Source: Holophagae bacterium
GTDB lineage: Bacteria; Acidobacteriota; Holophagae; Acanthopleuribacterales; Acanthopleuribacteraceae
Direction of reading: 5' to 3'
NCBI GenBank assembly: GCA_029263455.1
Contig: JAJCXM010000022.1
Coordinates: forward strand, 310,001 to 374,000
Length of the DNA stretch: 64,000 nt
The notes under the pieces are model-generated. The model did not search any database. It worked only from the letters and a program-made list of their open reading frames with translations, and had not been told where the DNA came from. A program made the translations under genes and the position numbers. Position 1 is the first letter of the stretch, and each line of letters begins with the position of its first letter. Below, one piece after another: positions 50,852 to 58,201 of this stretch.

Positions 50852-52807
50852 CTATTCATTATACGCTTTGCTGCCCGGGAAGGCTAAAGCCATATCCAAG
50901 TCAGAGGCGGATAGGTTGTAGACAAAAATGGCATAGCCGATTTGATGATCAGGTTGCCGTTGAAGCAGGTAATTCGTGAGTCGACGGAACCGAAATTGGT
51001 CAAATGCCTGTAGTTCCCTTTTCAGCTCGGGTGCTTTGGATTGCGCGACGATGGCTGAAGATTGCAATTCTGGTTGCCACTTGCGAAATAAGCTTCGGTA
51101 GGCCTGTTCGTATTCTGGGGACCATTCACCTTTGCCCCAATTAAGGTAGACCGGTTGCAGCATGCTTGCGCTTACGATATAACGGCCGGGTAAAAGTGGC
51201 TCAATGACAAGTTCTTCCAGGCTCGAGAAACTAGGCAATTTGTGCGTATCAATCCCATAGTGTTTGGGCTCGGCGTTGCCGAAGTAAGAAAAGTAGGTAG
51301 GCTCCTCGGTTGGATTGTCTTCCATCCATATCTTCAACTGATTGAGGCCCTGCCCCCAATCGAGTGAACTATCGATCAGGTGTTTGTATCCATTTTTAGA
51401 GCCACCGACTAGTTGGTTGAAATAGGCTAAATAGTTAGGATGAACGCTAATTGATTCGATAGATACAAGGATCACTACAAAAAAAATGAGCCACTTCCGC
51501 CAGCGCATCAAGGGTTCAAGTGATTTTAGGCCCCACCCGATTGCCATAAACAGAAATGGGTATAAGGGTAGCAAGTGCCTAAGGCCAATGTTAATTCCTG
51601 AAGTGAAGGATATATAACTATAAATAGCCACAAATAAGCAGCTCACGTAAAGGTATGGGTTACGCCAGTACTTAGGCTCTTTGAATAGCCATATGCCGCC
51701 GAAAACCAGCGCGTTGAGGCACAGTAATAGCGTCGTGATTGGGGTTTTGATGAGGAATGCGATTGGGAAAAAGCTGGCACGACCTCCGGAGTGGTATTTG
51801 CCATTCAGAAAGGCAGCTCGATTTTTTGAAAATGCCTTAGCGTATTCAAAACCATACAGGAATGCCTCAGGTGCAAGGCGGTAATTCTTGGCCACGCGGA
51901 CCATCGTTGAGGTTACCGATGTGGTCGATATTCGCGACCACGAGATGCTAGGTTGGCTTGCATGATTGACAGGATCAGATACGGTTCTGAATCGCAAACC
52001 GTAGTTGACCCATACCAGGGCTAAACATCCGATTGCGGCCAGCGAAATGGCCGCTGACAACGCAAAGAGTCGTTTGCGAACAGTATTCAAACTCTGAACA
52101 TCTGGGCCAGATCCCATTTCAAGCACAATAGGTAAGGCGGCACGAATAACAACGGCAACGATGATCACGGGCCCGAGTACAAAGGCCGAGTATTTAGAAC
52201 AGACCGCTGCCGCAAGCGCGACTGTAAATAGACATAAACGTGCCCATGTTAGCTGTTTCAAACAACTGGCGAATAGAAGTACCGAAAGTGTAAGAAATAG
52301 TGTGGCGCACATGTCCGAGGTCGCCAATGAGCTGTGAGCGAGAACCAAAGGGTCCATCGAAAACAAAAAGGTGGACACAATCGCAGACATGTTTCCAAAC
52401 CAATGACGAGAAACATAAAAGACGATGAAGAGGCAGGCAAGCGAGATGGCAATCACGCAACTACGTGCTTGAAATAGAATATCCATAGGCTTAACCGGCC
52501 CGGCGTGAATGAGGTCGCGACCCAAGTGACCAGCTGTCGAACGCGCCCATGCTGGATGGTCCCAGTCAGGTAGTGGCACTCGTTTATCGGCAGCAAGCGT
52601 GAGTGTGATCAGTCTTTGTGCCAAGACGCCATTCTCCGGATGCATTCGATAATCGTTTAGTCGCCAATAGCTAAGGCCACCCGCGATGTGGAACGGCTCG
52701 TCGAACGTAGCTGATTGGATATTGGCGACCGAGGCCGTGCGAATCACAAATAGCAATGCCAATAGCGCGAACCAAAAACTGGTTGGCTGAACTCTGATCC
52801 ATCTCAT
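50852..52807 (-). CDS. GT39/ArnT-like polytopic membrane glycosyltransferase
   Basis: 651 aa with about eleven membrane helices in residues 1-470 and a soluble C-terminal part. The first extracytoplasmic loop has the acidic motif SATFDEPFHIAGG, matching the catalytic DE of GT-C enzymes such as protein O-mannosyltransferases and ArnT. Another loop carries SIDPLVLAHS-type sequence (FSMDPLVLAHSSLATSDM), also common in the family. These enzymes transfer a sugar from a polyprenyl-phosphate donor to lipid or protein in the periplasm. It heads a run with parA, the M36-like peptidase and the 2OG oxygenase. Acceptor unknown. Confidence 0.85.
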   Translation of the reverse strand: MRWIRVQPTSFWFALLALLFVIRTASVANIQSATFDEPFHIAGGLSYWRLNDYRMHPENGVLAQRLITLTLAADKRVPLPDWDHPAWARSTAGHLGRDLIHAGPVKPMDILFQARSCVIAISLACLFIVFYVSRHWFGNMSAIVSTFLFSMDPLVLAHSSLATSDMCATLFLTLSVLLFASCLKQLTWARLCLFTVALAAAVCSKYSAFVLGPVIIVAVVIRAALPIVLEMGSGPDVQSLNTVRKRLFALSAAISLAAIGCLALVWVNYGLRFRTVSDPVNHASQPSISWSRISTTSVTSTMVRVAKNYRLAPEAFLYGFEYAKAFSKNRAAFLNGKYHSGGRASFFPIAFLIKTPITTLLLCLNALVFGGIWLFKEPKYWRNPYLYVSCLFVAIYSYISFTSGINIGLRHLLPLYPFLFMAIGWGLKSLEPLMRWRKWLIFFVVILVSIESISVHPNYLAYFNQLVGGSKNGYKHLIDSSLDWGQGLNQLKIWMEDNPTEEPTYFSYFGNAEPKHYGIDTHKLPSFSSLEELVIEPLLPGRYIVSASMLQPVYLNWGKGEWSPEYEQAYRSLFRKWQPELQSSAIVAQSKAPELKRELQAFDQFRFRRLTNYLLQRQPDHQIGYAIFVYNLSASDLDMALAFPGSKAYNE

Positions 52808-52898
52808 GCGCAGATTCTACACGACTAGACGTTGCTCAAAGCACTGTAAGTGAATGGAATGGGGTATTATTCGATAAAGACTTTTGGATGGAGGGAAT

Positions 52899-53864
52899 GT
52901 GTCGACGCCGTTGGATACAGATTTTGCCCGGGACCTGGTCAGAGGCTTGAAAAATCACCCTAGACGTCTGTTTCCTAGGTACCTCTACGACGATGTGGGA
53001 AGTGCGCTGTTTGAAGTCATAACACTATTGCCTGAATACCTGATTACGCGCAGTGAAACACAGCTTCTCAGGTCATCCTCGGCCGAAATAGCCGCTCAGC
53101 TCCCTTCAGGTTGTGCAGTTTGTGAGCTAGGCGGAGGTCGGGGCGCCAAGGCTAAGTTCTTATTGTCAGGATTGGCCAAACGCGATCGACAGGTGAAATA
53201 TTTCCCCGTTGACGTTTCGAGGTGGGCATTGGATGAGACCGTCATCGGTATGGAAGGTATTGATGACGTTGTGACGACACCGATCTGTGATACTTATTTG
53301 GATGGTTTAGTGCAGGTCGAAGAGCGCATTGATAAAAGACCATTGGTTGTATTGTTTCTGGGGTCAAATTTGGGAAACTTTGATCTTCCCCAGCGAGATG
53401 AATTCATCGCGAGAGTTAGTGCCTGTTTAAAGACTGGCGATGCGTTGCTTTTGGGTGTGGATATGGTGAAACCGAAGGCGTTATTGCACGAGGCTTATGA
53501 CGACCCAATCGGCGCCACGGCCGCCTTCAATAAAAACATTCTGGCGCGAATCAATCGCGAATTTGAGGCCAATTTTGACCCAAGAGCATACGGACACACA
53601 GCCGTTTGGAATGAAAACGAGTCTCGAATGGAATTGGGGCTCGTTAGTCATCGTGCTCAACGAGTGGTAATTCCTTGCCTGGGTCTAGACTTAGACTTTG
53701 AACAAGGGGAGCGTATCGTGACGGAGTATTCGTACAAATTCAATCCTTCAGATATCGATGAGGTCGCCAAAAAGGGAGGATTTAGTGTACAAGGCACTTG
53801 GACACATGCTGAGGGTCGTTTTTCGGAATCACTGTTGATTAAAACAGGTGTAAAGACAAGATGA
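52899..53864 (+). CDS. egtD: EgtD-family L-histidine N-alpha-methyltransferase-like protein
   Basis: 321 aa from the GTG at 52899, which has GGAGGG just upstream; a TTG at 52884 is the alternative. N-terminal FARDLVRGLKNHPRRLFPRYLYDDVGSALFEVITLLPEYLITRSE is the DUF2260/EgtD signature, followed by the SAM site CELGGGRGAKAKFLL and LGSNLGNF. EgtD trimethylates histidine to hercynine, the first step of ergothioneine synthesis. No EgtB-like sulfoxide synthase is in the window, so it may act with a distant partner or on another substrate. It overlaps the next gene by four bases. Confidence 0.9.
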   Translation: MSTPLDTDFARDLVRGLKNHPRRLFPRYLYDDVGSALFEVITLLPEYLITRSETQLLRSSSAEIAAQLPSGCAVCELGGGRGAKAKFLLSGLAKRDRQVKYFPVDVSRWALDETVIGMEGIDDVVTTPICDTYLDGLVQVEERIDKRPLVVLFLGSNLGNFDLPQRDEFIARVSACLKTGDALLLGVDMVKPKALLHEAYDDPIGATAAFNKNILARINREFEANFDPRAYGHTAVWNENESRMELGLVSHRAQRVVIPCLGLDLDFEQGERIVTEYSYKFNPSDIDEVAKKGGFSVQGTWTHAEGRFSESLLIKTGVKTR

Positions 53865-55657
53865 AGTATGTCGATGGCAAACGCTTTCGACGGGCGGTAG
53901 TGGCCGCGGCGCAACATGTGCTTGCCTGCCAGGAGCGTCTGAACCGCATCAATGTTTTTCCTGTAGCTGACGGTGACACGGGCACCAATATGGCAATGAC
54001 CTTGAGGGCGGTTGCTGACCGCGCCATCGATATGAGTGACCGAACACTAGCCTCCATGAGTGCTAGTTTGGCTGAAAGCGCTCTTTTGGGAGCGCGGGGC
54101 AATTCTGGTGCAATTCTCGCCCAGTTCTTTCAGGGATTGGCTGTCTCGTTTAGAGGAAAGAATCGTGTAAATACGACTAACCTTGTGGATTCCATGGTTG
54201 TGGCCGTCTCGCATGCTGAACAAGCGGTATTGAAACCGGTCGAAGGAACCATCTTGACCGTCATGCGTGACTGGAGTGAACATTTAAAACACAAACGTCA
54301 ATCAATTTCAGGCCTTGATCAAATCATGAGCGAGGGACTGGCTGCGGCTAGCCTGGCATTGAGTAGAACGCCCAAACAACTGAAAGTACTTGCCAGTGCA
54401 GGTGTAGTTGATGCAGGTGCCCAAGGGTTCGTAAATATGCTGGAGGGAATTGTCCGTCTCATTGAGGTGGGTCAACTCGATTGGGGTGCCAATGCCGACG
54501 AGACAGAGTTGGTGCAGACCCTGATTGATGAGCCAAATCCAGACCAACAATTTAGATACTGCACAGAGTGCGTCGTTAGTGGTACCGGTATATCGCTAAC
54601 ACAAATTCGCTCGGAAGTGGATGCCTTGGGCGACTCTCTGATAGTGGCAGGCAGTTCGGAACTTATTCGCATTCATATTCATTCCGATGATCCTGAAGCT
54701 GTTTATGAGATTGCTCGCAAATTTGGAGCCGTTAAACTGACGAAGGCAGATGATATGGTTGCCCAACAACAAAATAATTTTGAGCAGAAAAAGACACCGG
54801 CGATCTTAACGGATTCATCTTGTGATGTGCCGAGTGATTTTCTAATTCAACATCGGGTGCAAGTCGTGCCGGTTCGAGTTTCATTTGGCTCACGCGATTA
54901 TTTAGATCGATTGACGATTACGAGCAAAGAAGTTTATCGCTTGATGGCTACTCAGAAATATCAACCTAAAACATCGCAACCCTCGCCCGGTGAATTCATA
55001 AAAGCCTATCGATTGGCGAATGAGCACCACGATCAGGGATTGGTTTTGACGATTTCGTCCGCTTTGAGCGGTACCTATCAGGCTGGCCAAACGGCAGCAA
55101 AGCATTTACCTGATTTTGAAACACGTGTCTTTGATACTCGTTCGGCTGCACCAGGGCATGGCTTACTTTTGATGCTAGCCGCCGAATTCATAGAAGCTGG
55201 CAACGACCTTGATGAAGTCGTTCGCAAATTGACGTTCGCTCGTGCTCACACGACCGTATTCGCGTCGCTTGAAACGGTGGATTATGCGGTTCGTGGTGGA
55301 CGGGTGCCAAAAATTCAGGGGCTTGTCGCTTCTCTGATAGGGCGCGTACCCATTCTTAAAGTTGATCACACTGGCAAAATTAGGCGAGTAGCGATGGTTA
55401 ATCCCGGTGAAACAGCTGATCGCAAGCTGCAAAAATTGATACGAAAACAGGTAGGTAAAAAAGACATACTGCGATTCATTGTCAGCCATGCGAATGCAGA
55501 ACAGCGTGCCAATCGTTTGTTGAGTTACATTGCTGAAGAATTTGGCGTGGTTGATGTGCCGGTGCTTGATGTTTCGCCAACCTTAGGTGCGCATGTAGGC
55601 CCTGGCACAGCAGCTGTTGGTGTCATGGCCTATTCGAAAGCAGAACAACCGTGGTAA
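53861..55657 (+). CDS. FakA-FakB fusion: DAK2/YloV fatty-acid kinase joined to a DegV fatty-acid-binding domain
   Basis: 598 aa. The N-terminal DAK2 kinase domain (residues 1 to about 200) has the metal-binding NVFPVADGDTGTNM (Asp37, Asp39) and GARGNSGAILAQFFQG. The FakA middle domain (about 235-300) has YCTECVVSG and LIRIHIHSDDPEAV. The DegV domain (about 310-595) has AILTDSSCDVPSDF, TSQPSPGEF and ISSALSGTYQ, the lipid-pocket motifs. In Firmicutes FakA and FakB are separate proteins that phosphorylate exogenous fatty acids; here both halves are in one chain. Overlapping PlsY by seven bases gives a direct route from acyl-phosphate to lysophosphatidate. Confidence 0.92.
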   Translation: MKYVDGKRFRRAVVAAAQHVLACQERLNRINVFPVADGDTGTNMAMTLRAVADRAIDMSDRTLASMSASLAESALLGARGNSGAILAQFFQGLAVSFRGKNRVNTTNLVDSMVVAVSHAEQAVLKPVEGTILTVMRDWSEHLKHKRQSISGLDQIMSEGLAAASLALSRTPKQLKVLASAGVVDAGAQGFVNMLEGIVRLIEVGQLDWGANADETELVQTLIDEPNPDQQFRYCTECVVSGTGISLTQIRSEVDALGDSLIVAGSSELIRIHIHSDDPEAVYEIARKFGAVKLTKADDMVAQQQNNFEQKKTPAILTDSSCDVPSDFLIQHRVQVVPVRVSFGSRDYLDRLTITSKEVYRLMATQKYQPKTSQPSPGEFIKAYRLANEHHDQGLVLTISSALSGTYQAGQTAAKHLPDFETRVFDTRSAAPGHGLLLMLAAEFIEAGNDLDEVVRKLTFARAHTTVFASLETVDYAVRGGRVPKIQGLVASLIGRVPILKVDHTGKIRRVAMVNPGETADRKLQKLIRKQVGKKDILRFIVSHANAEQRANRLLSYIAEEFGVVDVPVLDVSPTLGAHVGPGTAAVGVMAYSKAEQPW

Positions 55658-56280
55658 CGATCGCGGCGTATTTGGTAGCGTCCTATCTTTGTGGATCAAT
55701 AGCCACCTCGATTTGGGTCGGTAGATGGGTGTACGGACTAGATGTCCGTGAGCATGGCAGCGGCAATGCTGGTGCTACCAATGTTTATCGTGTCTTGGGG
55801 TGGCGTCCTGCGTTGTTTGTCGTGATCGTTGATGTCGCAAAAGGCTGGGCGCCCACTTGGTTAGCCGTTTTGGTTTTTAGTGAAATGCCACCTGTCAGAT
55901 TGGTGTCCTTACAAATAGCAATTGGTGTAAGTGCCATACTTGGACATGTATGGACCGTCTTTGCGGGTTTCCGTGGAGGAAAGGGCGTAGGAACGGCTGC
56001 TGGTGTGCTTCTGGCCCTTTTTCCGATTGCTGTCCCAATCTGCATTTTAGTTTTCGGTCTGGTTGTTTGGCGGACTGGTTTGGTGTCGCTTGCCTCAATC
56101 ACAGCGGTCTGCTGTTTTCCAATCGTGTTGGCTGTTCTTCAGGTCTATTTTGGGCAATCGATTGCTCCACCGCTCTGGGGCTTGGCGGCCGCTATCGTTC
56201 CTTTCATCATTTACACTCACCGTTCTAATCTCAAGCGTCTTTTAGCTGGCGAGGAGAATAGGTTCCACAAGAAAAAGTAG
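55651..56280 (+). CDS. plsY: PlsY, acyl-phosphate:glycerol-3-phosphate acyltransferase
   Basis: 209 aa from a GTG. Five membrane segments and the three conserved PlsY motifs: GSGNAGATNVYRVLGW, LGHVWTVFAGFRGGKGVGTAAGVLL, and the C-terminal HRSNLKRLLAGEENRF. It transfers the acyl group from acyl-phosphate to glycerol-3-phosphate at the inner face of the cytoplasmic membrane. The frame begins inside the last codons of the FakAB fusion, so the two are translationally coupled and functionally linked. Confidence 0.96.
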   Translation: MVTIAAYLVASYLCGSIATSIWVGRWVYGLDVREHGSGNAGATNVYRVLGWRPALFVVIVDVAKGWAPTWLAVLVFSEMPPVRLVSLQIAIGVSAILGHVWTVFAGFRGGKGVGTAAGVLLALFPIAVPICILVFGLVVWRTGLVSLASITAVCCFPIVLAVLQVYFGQSIAPPLWGLAAAIVPFIIYTHRSNLKRLLAGEENRFHKKK

Positions 56281-56281
56281 A

Positions 56282-58201
56282 TTAGTAGTCTAAAGCTTGT
56301 TTCTTTCTATCCATTCTTGCGGCGAATACCTGCCGAATTCTATTTAGCTCATTGAGTTGAGATTCACTCAGTTGATCTTCATAGACTCCATAGAAAAACA
56401 TCTTGGCTAACAAATATTGGATATTGTCGGGATGGCTGACTAGACCGATTGCATTAACTTCATGCCCCAAGACGGATAATGCTTCCGGTGTGTCTACCAT
56501 TTTTGAACGTAGGACATGAACCATCAATGTCGTCGTCATGGCATAAACGGAGAACGTGTTTCTGAGGATGTAATCGCTGCAAATTAATTCAGCTTGATCA
56601 ATAGCATGTCGGGCATCTTCGACATCAGTCGAGACCAGCAGCGCTTTGTCGACTAATTGATTGGCTTTCATTAGGGGAATTTCAAAACGGCGACCATATT
56701 TCCACGCGTGTTTTTGATCGCTAGCAATGATATCAGCCGGCATGGTTGTTGTGGCTACGTTAACTAAAACAAAAGAGCAAATGACAAATCCTGGCAGGCT
56801 AACAAGCAAGGGCTTCGAGAACACTTTACGTCGTGACGAATTTTGATTAAATCGAATCGCTGCGCCGACGACGAGAATAGTTAAGATACGAATCGCGGGT
56901 ACGCGAATGGGAAACGAAATAAGCGAATGAATGAGAACAACTGCAACAATCGCTCGTGCAGCCATCACGTAATAACGGCGATCAGCATGTTGAGAGCCTG
57001 AGCCTAAACACGTCCAAAGAATAACCAACAAGAGTCCTATCGCGATAATGCCTGGAATGCCTAATTCATTGGAAATTTGTATGTAGTCATTGTGGTATTC
57101 CGTCCAATCTGCGCCACCGTCAGGCGCGGAAGACATTGATGGCGGTAACAAAACGTAGGTTGACCCTAGACCGGTTCCCATTATTGGCGCGCGTTTTAGA
57201 AAATTCACCCCAACTTTCATCGCTTCAACGCGATTGCCCCAGTCAAATCGATTCCTGTCAAACTTATCGAGGTTACTTCCTAGGGGAATCTGGGAGAGAA
57301 TCAAGACCGATAGCATGACGCCAGCGAATGCAAATTTGTAAGCCGTCCAGGATGACTTGTTCCGAGCAGAAGACATGGCAATCTGAGCAAAAAACAATAC
57401 GATTGCGATCACCAGCAGCAGGATACCGCTCCTTGAATTGGCAAATCGAAATGCCAAGAAACACAGATCTAACAAAATAAGATCGAGTAGCGGGTTCAAG
57501 AAGGAAATGAGCACGTTGGATCGGTGGCCGGCAGCACTTTTCCATTCCTTGACCATTTGCCGCAGACCTAATGTAAGCGACTGAATGCAAAGCAAAATGA
57601 GGATAACTGACGTCAAAGCAAAATGGTTTGTATTCACCAATCCGCCAAAAGTTGTTTGGTAAGGAGACAGCCAACTGCCGTCTGAAATGAGTCCCCTACC
57701 TGCCATAATCATCAGCACACTCAAAATGAATGTGATCAATCTGAACCAAATACGAAAAACTTGTCTACGAGGGCGAGGTCCTACAAAAACCAGTAAGACC
57801 AAATAAAAATCGCAACCCAATTTGGCCAGTAATAGGCCATGGTATGAGGGCAAAACAGCAATTTGAGTTTGTACAGCTGTGTCTGGGAATACGGCCGCAA
57901 TGGCGCCTGCAAAGTAGACCTTGATGGGGGCCAAAAAGCTGAACAGAAAATGCGGTAAGGGAATCAATTGTATGAGGCCCGTACCCATCACCAAAATGAT
58001 CAGCCAAGTCACTTGCTTTGGGACTGGATAGCTTGATTTTTCGCCGAAGGCCAAGAATGTAGCTAGCACTAAGAACCCGGCATGTACGGCAAAATCGCTG
58101 GCTGCTAAGCCTCCGAAGTTTAGGTATTGATATAGTGCGTCGCAGAGCAACACGCTCCAAAAAAGATTGGTCCGCCATGCTCTACGATCTAGCTGTATCA
58201 T
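56282..58201 (-). CDS. O-antigen ligase/polymerase-like (Wzy_C) membrane protein
   Basis: 639 aa, about twelve membrane helices in the first 450 residues and a soluble helical C-terminus. Family features: GGLVNTNHFALTSVILILL, RFANSRSGILLLVIAIVLFF, and the large periplasmic loop with WTEYHNDYIQISNELGIPG. Such proteins join or polymerise glycan chains on lipid A core or on undecaprenyl carriers, or glycosylate proteins. The ATG at 58201 lies six bases after a strong hairpin that covers its presumed ribosome site. The TonB receptor gene ends 41 bp upstream. Confidence 0.85.
   Translation of the reverse strand: MIQLDRRAWRTNLFWSVLLCDALYQYLNFGGLAASDFAVHAGFLVLATFLAFGEKSSYPVPKQVTWLIILVMGTGLIQLIPLPHFLFSFLAPIKVYFAGAIAAVFPDTAVQTQIAVLPSYHGLLLAKLGCDFYLVLLVFVGPRPRRQVFRIWFRLITFILSVLMIMAGRGLISDGSWLSPYQTTFGGLVNTNHFALTSVILILLCIQSLTLGLRQMVKEWKSAAGHRSNVLISFLNPLLDLILLDLCFLAFRFANSRSGILLLVIAIVLFFAQIAMSSARNKSSWTAYKFAFAGVMLSVLILSQIPLGSNLDKFDRNRFDWGNRVEAMKVGVNFLKRAPIMGTGLGSTYVLLPPSMSSAPDGGADWTEYHNDYIQISNELGIPGIIAIGLLLVILWTCLGSGSQHADRRYYVMAARAIVAVVLIHSLISFPIRVPAIRILTILVVGAAIRFNQNSSRRKVFSKPLLVSLPGFVICSFVLVNVATTTMPADIIASDQKHAWKYGRRFEIPLMKANQLVDKALLVSTDVEDARHAIDQAELICSDYILRNTFSVYAMTTTLMVHVLRSKMVDTPEALSVLGHEVNAIGLVSHPDNIQYLLAKMFFYGVYEDQLSESQLNELNRIRQVFAARMDRKKQALDY

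Follow-up and report, generated by a model that had tools for sequence, protein, structure and literature searches.

PlsY is an acyltransferase that takes acyl-phosphate as its donor, and Dak2 domains belong to the dihydroxyacetone kinase superfamily. Among the closest described counterparts of the locus analyzed here is the two-component fatty acid kinase (Fak) of Staphylococcus aureus. As described in the accessible text of PMC9136124, S. aureus FakA consists of three domains; the C-terminal one (FakA_C) resembles FakB, has no fatty-acid tunnel and binds FakB. The available parts of PMC10146087 and PMC12594616 present Fak as the Gram-positive route for outside fatty acids and assign acyl-CoA and acyl-ACP synthetases to Gram-negative bacteria. 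Whether the active FakA-FakB complex assembles in cis or in trans is treated as open, with no structure of the active complex, in the accessible sections of PMC11617999, and in S. aureus devoid of PlsX, outside fatty acids are described as occupying position 1 only (PMC13245860, accessible sections). The literature searched contained no account of a FakA-FakB fusion in nature, a weak negative given that subscription papers were mostly outside the search.

Domain architecture and immediate neighbours

The window, i.e. the whole stretch of 64,000 nucleotides of Holophagae bacterium contig JAJCXM010000022.1 (genome G000) that was analyzed, contains at 53861-55657 on the forward strand a reading frame of 598 amino acids with an ATG start codon and no internal stops, which we annotate as a putative single-chain fatty acid kinase. 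On the same strand, it encodes a Dak2 domain (FakA_N, ATP-binding; 53960-54454, residues 34-198; Pfam 122.8 bits, cut-off 27), a FakA-like_M/FakA_L middle domain (PF21645; 54548-54775, residues 230-305; 66.8 bits, cut-off 24.9) and, in the position of FakA_C, a DegV (FakB) domain (54800-55627, residues 314-589; 234.7 bits, cut-off 27). Thus, the original prediction of a 598-residue chain carrying DAK2, FakA-middle and DegV domains with their key motifs is borne out, all Pfam cut-offs being passed and the tested catalytic residues kept. Its description as a FakA-FakB fusion is correct in that both halves stand in one chain, but this is not a plain joining, as FakA_C is gone and DegV is in its place. 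The C-terminal stretch matches FakA-like_C with only 26.3 bits, compared to 234.7 bits for DegV, and was not recognised as the tunnel-less, FakB-docking FakA_C domain; because DegV starts eight residues past the middle domain, FakA_C is missing from the fusion and is replaced by a true DegV domain. Narrower profiles scored below their cut-offs: 299 bits vs. 396 for TIGR03599 ('DAK2 domain fusion protein YloV'), with positions 1-399 of 530 covered, 190.4 vs. 975 for the NCBIfam FakA_VfrB equivalog and 131.4 vs. 350 for the NCBIfam fatty_FakB1 equivalog.

The predicted model of the fusion has a pLDDT of 85.4 and a pTM of 0.58, a low value, so that the model does not fix the mutual arrangement of the domains. 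The modelled DegV domain superimposes on palmitate-loaded FakB1 over 279 residues (2.0 Å, Z 35.1) and the modelled kinase domain on FakA_N over 208 residues (1.5 Å, Z 32.1). FakB1 is covered almost in full, which suggests that the fusion has the inserts forming the roof of the FakB1 tunnel, absent from FakA_C. The FakA_C crystal structure was not among the structural matches listed for the model, which has no bearing either way.

Directly downstream lies plsY, encoding glycerol-3-phosphate acyltransferase (55651-56280, forward strand; TIGR00023 158.5 bits, cut-off 137.2). As predicted, the fusion stop overlaps the PlsY start: direct reading of the sequence places the plsY GTG from 55651 and the fusion TAA up to 55657, an overlap of 7 nt (55651-55657). 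Upstream, an egtD-like histidine methyltransferase gene (52884-53864, forward strand; TIGR03438 298.8 bits, cut-off 290.9) shares 4 nt, 53861-53864, between its stop and the fusion start; it is possible that the real egtD start is the GTG at 52899, which follows GGAGG, instead of 52884. A scan of 52700-56500 for promoters and terminators yielded 3 and 5 sites, respectively, compared to 4.1 and 4.0 in shuffled sequences.

Occurrence of the fusion and its genomic context

We identified 52 distinct single-chain fusions, in Acidobacteriota, the KSB1 phylum, Proteobacteria and one Atribacteria bin. These comprise the 24 fusions of alignment A1, which includes the window's fusion and on which residue conservation was scored, and 30 KSB1 loci, with two loci common to both sets. 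A search of genome contigs returned 77 loci, eight of them with a single-frame fusion: the congener HKST-UBA04 (locus L006), whose fusion is 57% identical to that of the window, a KSB1 bin, UBA2214, an Atribacteria bin and four Proteobacteria bins. In the KSB1 phylum, the fusion profile matched 51 of the 82 genomes; 45 of these matches span at least 556 of the 596 profile positions in one stretch, and the remaining six are interrupted or incomplete. In the host phylum, 149 genomes were sampled; Dak2 was matched in 21 of them, with 22 matches, 20 over the cut-off. Of these 20, 16 represent the fusion, and the other four are a normal FakA next to one DegV and two PlsY genes (L099/L119), a protein with the reversed order, DegV-Dak2 (L117), and two without a match to the fusion domains (L097 and L114). 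Within the host order, the fusion was found in two of the seven genomes, both of the same genus, and in G000 it is the only FakA-type Dak2 protein and the only full DegV protein.

Several observations were made alongside this survey. The sole other DegV-like protein of G000 (L003:565-2328, contig C3; 587 aa) joins a response regulator, DUF4388 and a degenerate DegV, and is possibly a fatty-acid-sensing regulator. Genome G107 encodes both an ordinary fusion and a 784-aa protein with DegV preceding Dak2 (L134:5369-7720, reverse strand). An unfused counterpart of the window's gene arrangement is seen in G074, of the same phylum, where fakB and fakA are individual genes lying next to two plsY-like genes (L119:4295-8574, reverse strand). 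In two loci (L120:5103-7955 and L121:1197-4040), the fusion frame extends upstream to about 950 aa in total; in L120, just the usual three domains were recognised, and the added stretch may be real coding sequence or a frame left open by chance. The fusion in a metagenome bin titled Klebsiella pneumoniae (L010) is almost the same as the fusions of uncultured Proteobacteria, and the label is probably wrong.

The survey proposed with the original prediction, of the fusion and of the plsY gene that follows it, thus yielded plsY directly downstream in 34 of the 52 distinct fusions. The gene was non-adjacent in the other 18, one of which has too little flank to judge. By set, plsY directly follows the fusion in 9 of the 24 A1 loci (window, L006, L007, L009, L104-L107 and L109) and in 27 of the 30 KSB1 loci read; among the KSB1 exceptions, L154 and L170 have no plsY within about 1.5 kb, and L166 has a downstream flank of 148 bp only. 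For the predicted three-gene unit with EgtD, the 4-nt overlap is real but the unit is not upheld: tblastn detected no EgtD near the fusion at any of the other loci examined, and in the congener a divergent ParA-like gene lies beside the fusion, without egtD, so that an EgtD-fusion-PlsY unit was rejected. The link with EgtD is a local feature, and egtD is not a conserved neighbour. On the other side, the congener and the window have in common PlsY and, behind it, a convergent O-antigen-ligase-like gene.

Conservation of kinase and fatty-acid-binding residues and loss of the docking arginine

The FakA residues N32, D38, D40, T41, N82 and D185 (S. aureus numbers), listed in the accessible text of PMC9136124, correspond to N31, D37, D39, T40, N81 and D184 of the fusion and are invariant in all 24 sequences of A1. 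Similarly, C234, H272 and H274 of the middle domain, equivalent to FakA Cys240, His282 and His284, are invariant (24/24). In the DegV domain, alignment with FakB2 (4x9x) and with A1 equates T371, S403, H578 and R481 with FakB1 Thr62, Ser95, His270 and Arg173; this network, including the catalytic R481, is invariant in the 24 fusions, except that position 371 is either Thr or Ser. In the 30 KSB1 loci, all tested catalytic and network residues are retained with a single exception, H578Y. The position of FakB1 Ser171 is Gly in the fusion, as in FakB2. Loss of the fatty-acid-binding residues, named beforehand as an outcome that would contradict the prediction, was therefore not seen: T371, S403, R481 and H578 are kept, and the predicted fold is FakB-like.

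A different pattern was observed at the position of FakB1 R205, which, in the accessible text of PMC8892158, docks on FakA_C, touches the membrane and is described as completely conserved in FakB. In the window's fusion, this position is N514. The FakB2 equivalent is R202, as confirmed by counting on 4x9x. Of the 52 distinct fusions, 5 have Arg at the docking position and 2 have Lys, compared to Arg in 14 of 17 stand-alone DegV proteins (the rest being one Ala, one Lys and one gap), a set that includes the DegV part of the reversed protein L117 and some near copies (Fisher p = 4 × 10−8, with the kinship of the sequences ignored). After thinning at 60% identity, the difference persisted, with Arg in 3 of 32 fusions and 7 of 10 stand-alone proteins (p = 4 × 10−4). 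In some fusions, other basic residues occur close to the docking position. The loss of this arginine fits the architecture because its partner, FakA_C, is absent; and since the same residue is the membrane-contact Arg of FakB1, the membrane contact or loading of the fusion must differ.

Proposed role, origin and comparison with known systems

G000 encodes one PlsY, and PlsY is present in all seven genomes of the order. PlsX was not found in G000 and is absent from all seven, in a search that was positive in 123 of the 149 genomes of the phylum; the absence across the order is what carries weight because G000 is 95% complete and a single gene missing in G000 alone proves little. Within the phylum, PlsX is missing in 26 of the 149 genomes, from several families, i.e. 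its loss is wider than the host order. All seven genomes of the order encode a PlsB-like protein that scores 350-382 bits, below the TIGR03703 cut-off of 618.5. The protein of G000 (G000:C26:47456-49438) reaches 385 bits with this profile and exceeds the cut-offs of Pfam GPAT_C (205.2 bits) and Acyltransferase (79.8 bits); as the equivalog cut-off is not reached, it is graded PlsB-like only. In five of the seven genomes (G001, G006, G005, G002 and G003; PlsY loci L086-L090), PlsY occurs with neither PlsX nor the fusion, that is, with neither known source of acyl-phosphate, so that PlsY in these genomes would use a different donor or serve another function. The possibility that the fusion substitutes for PlsX wherever the latter was lost was rejected, because PlsX is present in 6 of the 8 other fusion genomes tested; the two without it are the congener and UBA2214.

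Taken from sequence and predicted structure, the reading that we consider highly probable is that the fusion would be a working, self-contained fatty acid kinase in a single chain that supplies PlsY. The DegV domain would draw a fatty acid from the membrane, and the tethered kinase domain would phosphorylate it while held by DegV, either within one chain (in cis) or between the two chains of a dimer formed by the middle domain (in trans). The acyl-phosphate would then pass to PlsY, whose gene is probably cotranscribed with the fusion, and PlsY would place the acyl chain on position 1 of glycerol-3-phosphate. Points that weigh against this reading are the loss of the membrane-contact Arg, the 18 fusions that have no adjacent plsY, the five genomes of the order in which PlsY occurs with neither PlsX nor the fusion, the low pTM, and the scores below the FakA and FakB1 equivalog cut-offs. 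With no recognisable PlsX in G000, the acyl-phosphate could not become acyl-ACP. Given the lack of this bridge and the presence of the PlsB-like protein, the fusion and PlsY would thus form a salvage lane beside the PlsB-like route, the former serving outside or recycled fatty acids and the latter newly made chains; for such a PlsX-free salvage role in the host genome, the case appears evenly balanced. The earlier proposal that the fusion feeds PlsY accordingly stands as far as the linkage is concerned (plsY directly downstream in 34/52), and its pathway has to be refined to a setting without PlsX and with a PlsB-like protein.

The same absence of PlsX from G000 could be read as a sign that phospholipid synthesis in this organism starts mainly through the fusion and PlsY, with FASII fatty acids freed by a thioesterase and phosphorylated by the fusion in place of PlsX; Firmicutes offer a precedent, as an acyl-ACP thioesterase together with Fak is described as rescuing or bypassing plsX loss (PMC13245860, accessible sections). 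We regard this as improbable, because a PlsB-like GPAT is found in 7/7 genomes of the order and the fusion is missing in 5/7; the same GPAT makes it unlikely that phospholipid synthesis starts through the fusion alone. It is also conceivable that the protein binds a fatty acid but chiefly phosphorylates another substrate, such as another acid or a dihydroxyacetone-like compound, or senses fatty acids, and the weak matches of the fusion to the DhaL and glycerone kinase profiles (22-25 bits) point in this direction. The FakA-specific middle domain with its Cys-His-His residues, the FakB catalytic Arg and the linkage with plsY in two phyla argue against this option, which we consider very improbable.

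A sequencing error or faulty gene call that joined two neighbouring genes has a certain basis in that adjacent but separate fakA and fakB genes exist, e.g. in Chloroflexota loci. Such an artefact is hardly credible and was already refuted by the 52 distinct forms, each in a single frame and lacking FakA_C, that come from many independent assemblies; in particular, a lone annotation or assembly error, the other outcome anticipated as contradicting the prediction, is excluded by the 57% identical congener among 51 other single-frame relatives.

With respect to origin, it is possible, although on balance rather unlikely, that the single-chain form is the older one and that FakA_C is a decayed fused FakB without the tunnel. 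The two-component Gram-positive Fak would then go back to a duplication that gave a separate FakB, with the tethered copy losing its fatty acid. If so, the fusions would preserve the ancestral arrangement, and the location of DegV in them would show the fatty acid site during catalysis. Kinase-domain trees separate FakA from most fusions; they give no usable root, as L097, the one outgroup row obtained, has a branch of length 10. In the DegV tree, the fusions do not all fall into one clade, yet a single clade is not rejected (p-AU = 0.279, L117 excluded).

The occurrence of a putative one-chain Fak linked to plsY in several further phyla widens the Gram-positive picture of Fak; a natural 1:1 fusion provides a direct handle on the cis/trans question of the active complex; and Fak with PlsY but without PlsX predicts a lipid signature in which outside fatty acids occupy position 1 only. 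Compared to the dihydroxyacetone kinase DhaK-DhaL, the modelled fusion has folds in common (Z 25.8 for DhaL and 17 for DhaK), but identity is 14% and 9%, respectively, and the fusion lacks DhaK and has the FakA middle domain and FakB. With respect to the PlsX-PlsY pathway, PlsY is present and scores over the equivalog cut-off, whereas PlsX was not found in the genome or the order. The N-terminal part is common to the fusion and TIGR03599 YloV, the usual FakA, and the FakA_C part of YloV is replaced by DegV. With the two-component FakA and FakB of S. aureus and S. suis (7w7h), the fusion shares the nucleotide and Cys-His-His residues, an FakB-type DegV domain, the network and the catalytic Arg; it differs in being one chain with a fixed 1:1 ratio, in having no FakA_C and a mostly lost docking Arg, and in occurring with plsY directly downstream in outer-membrane phyla.
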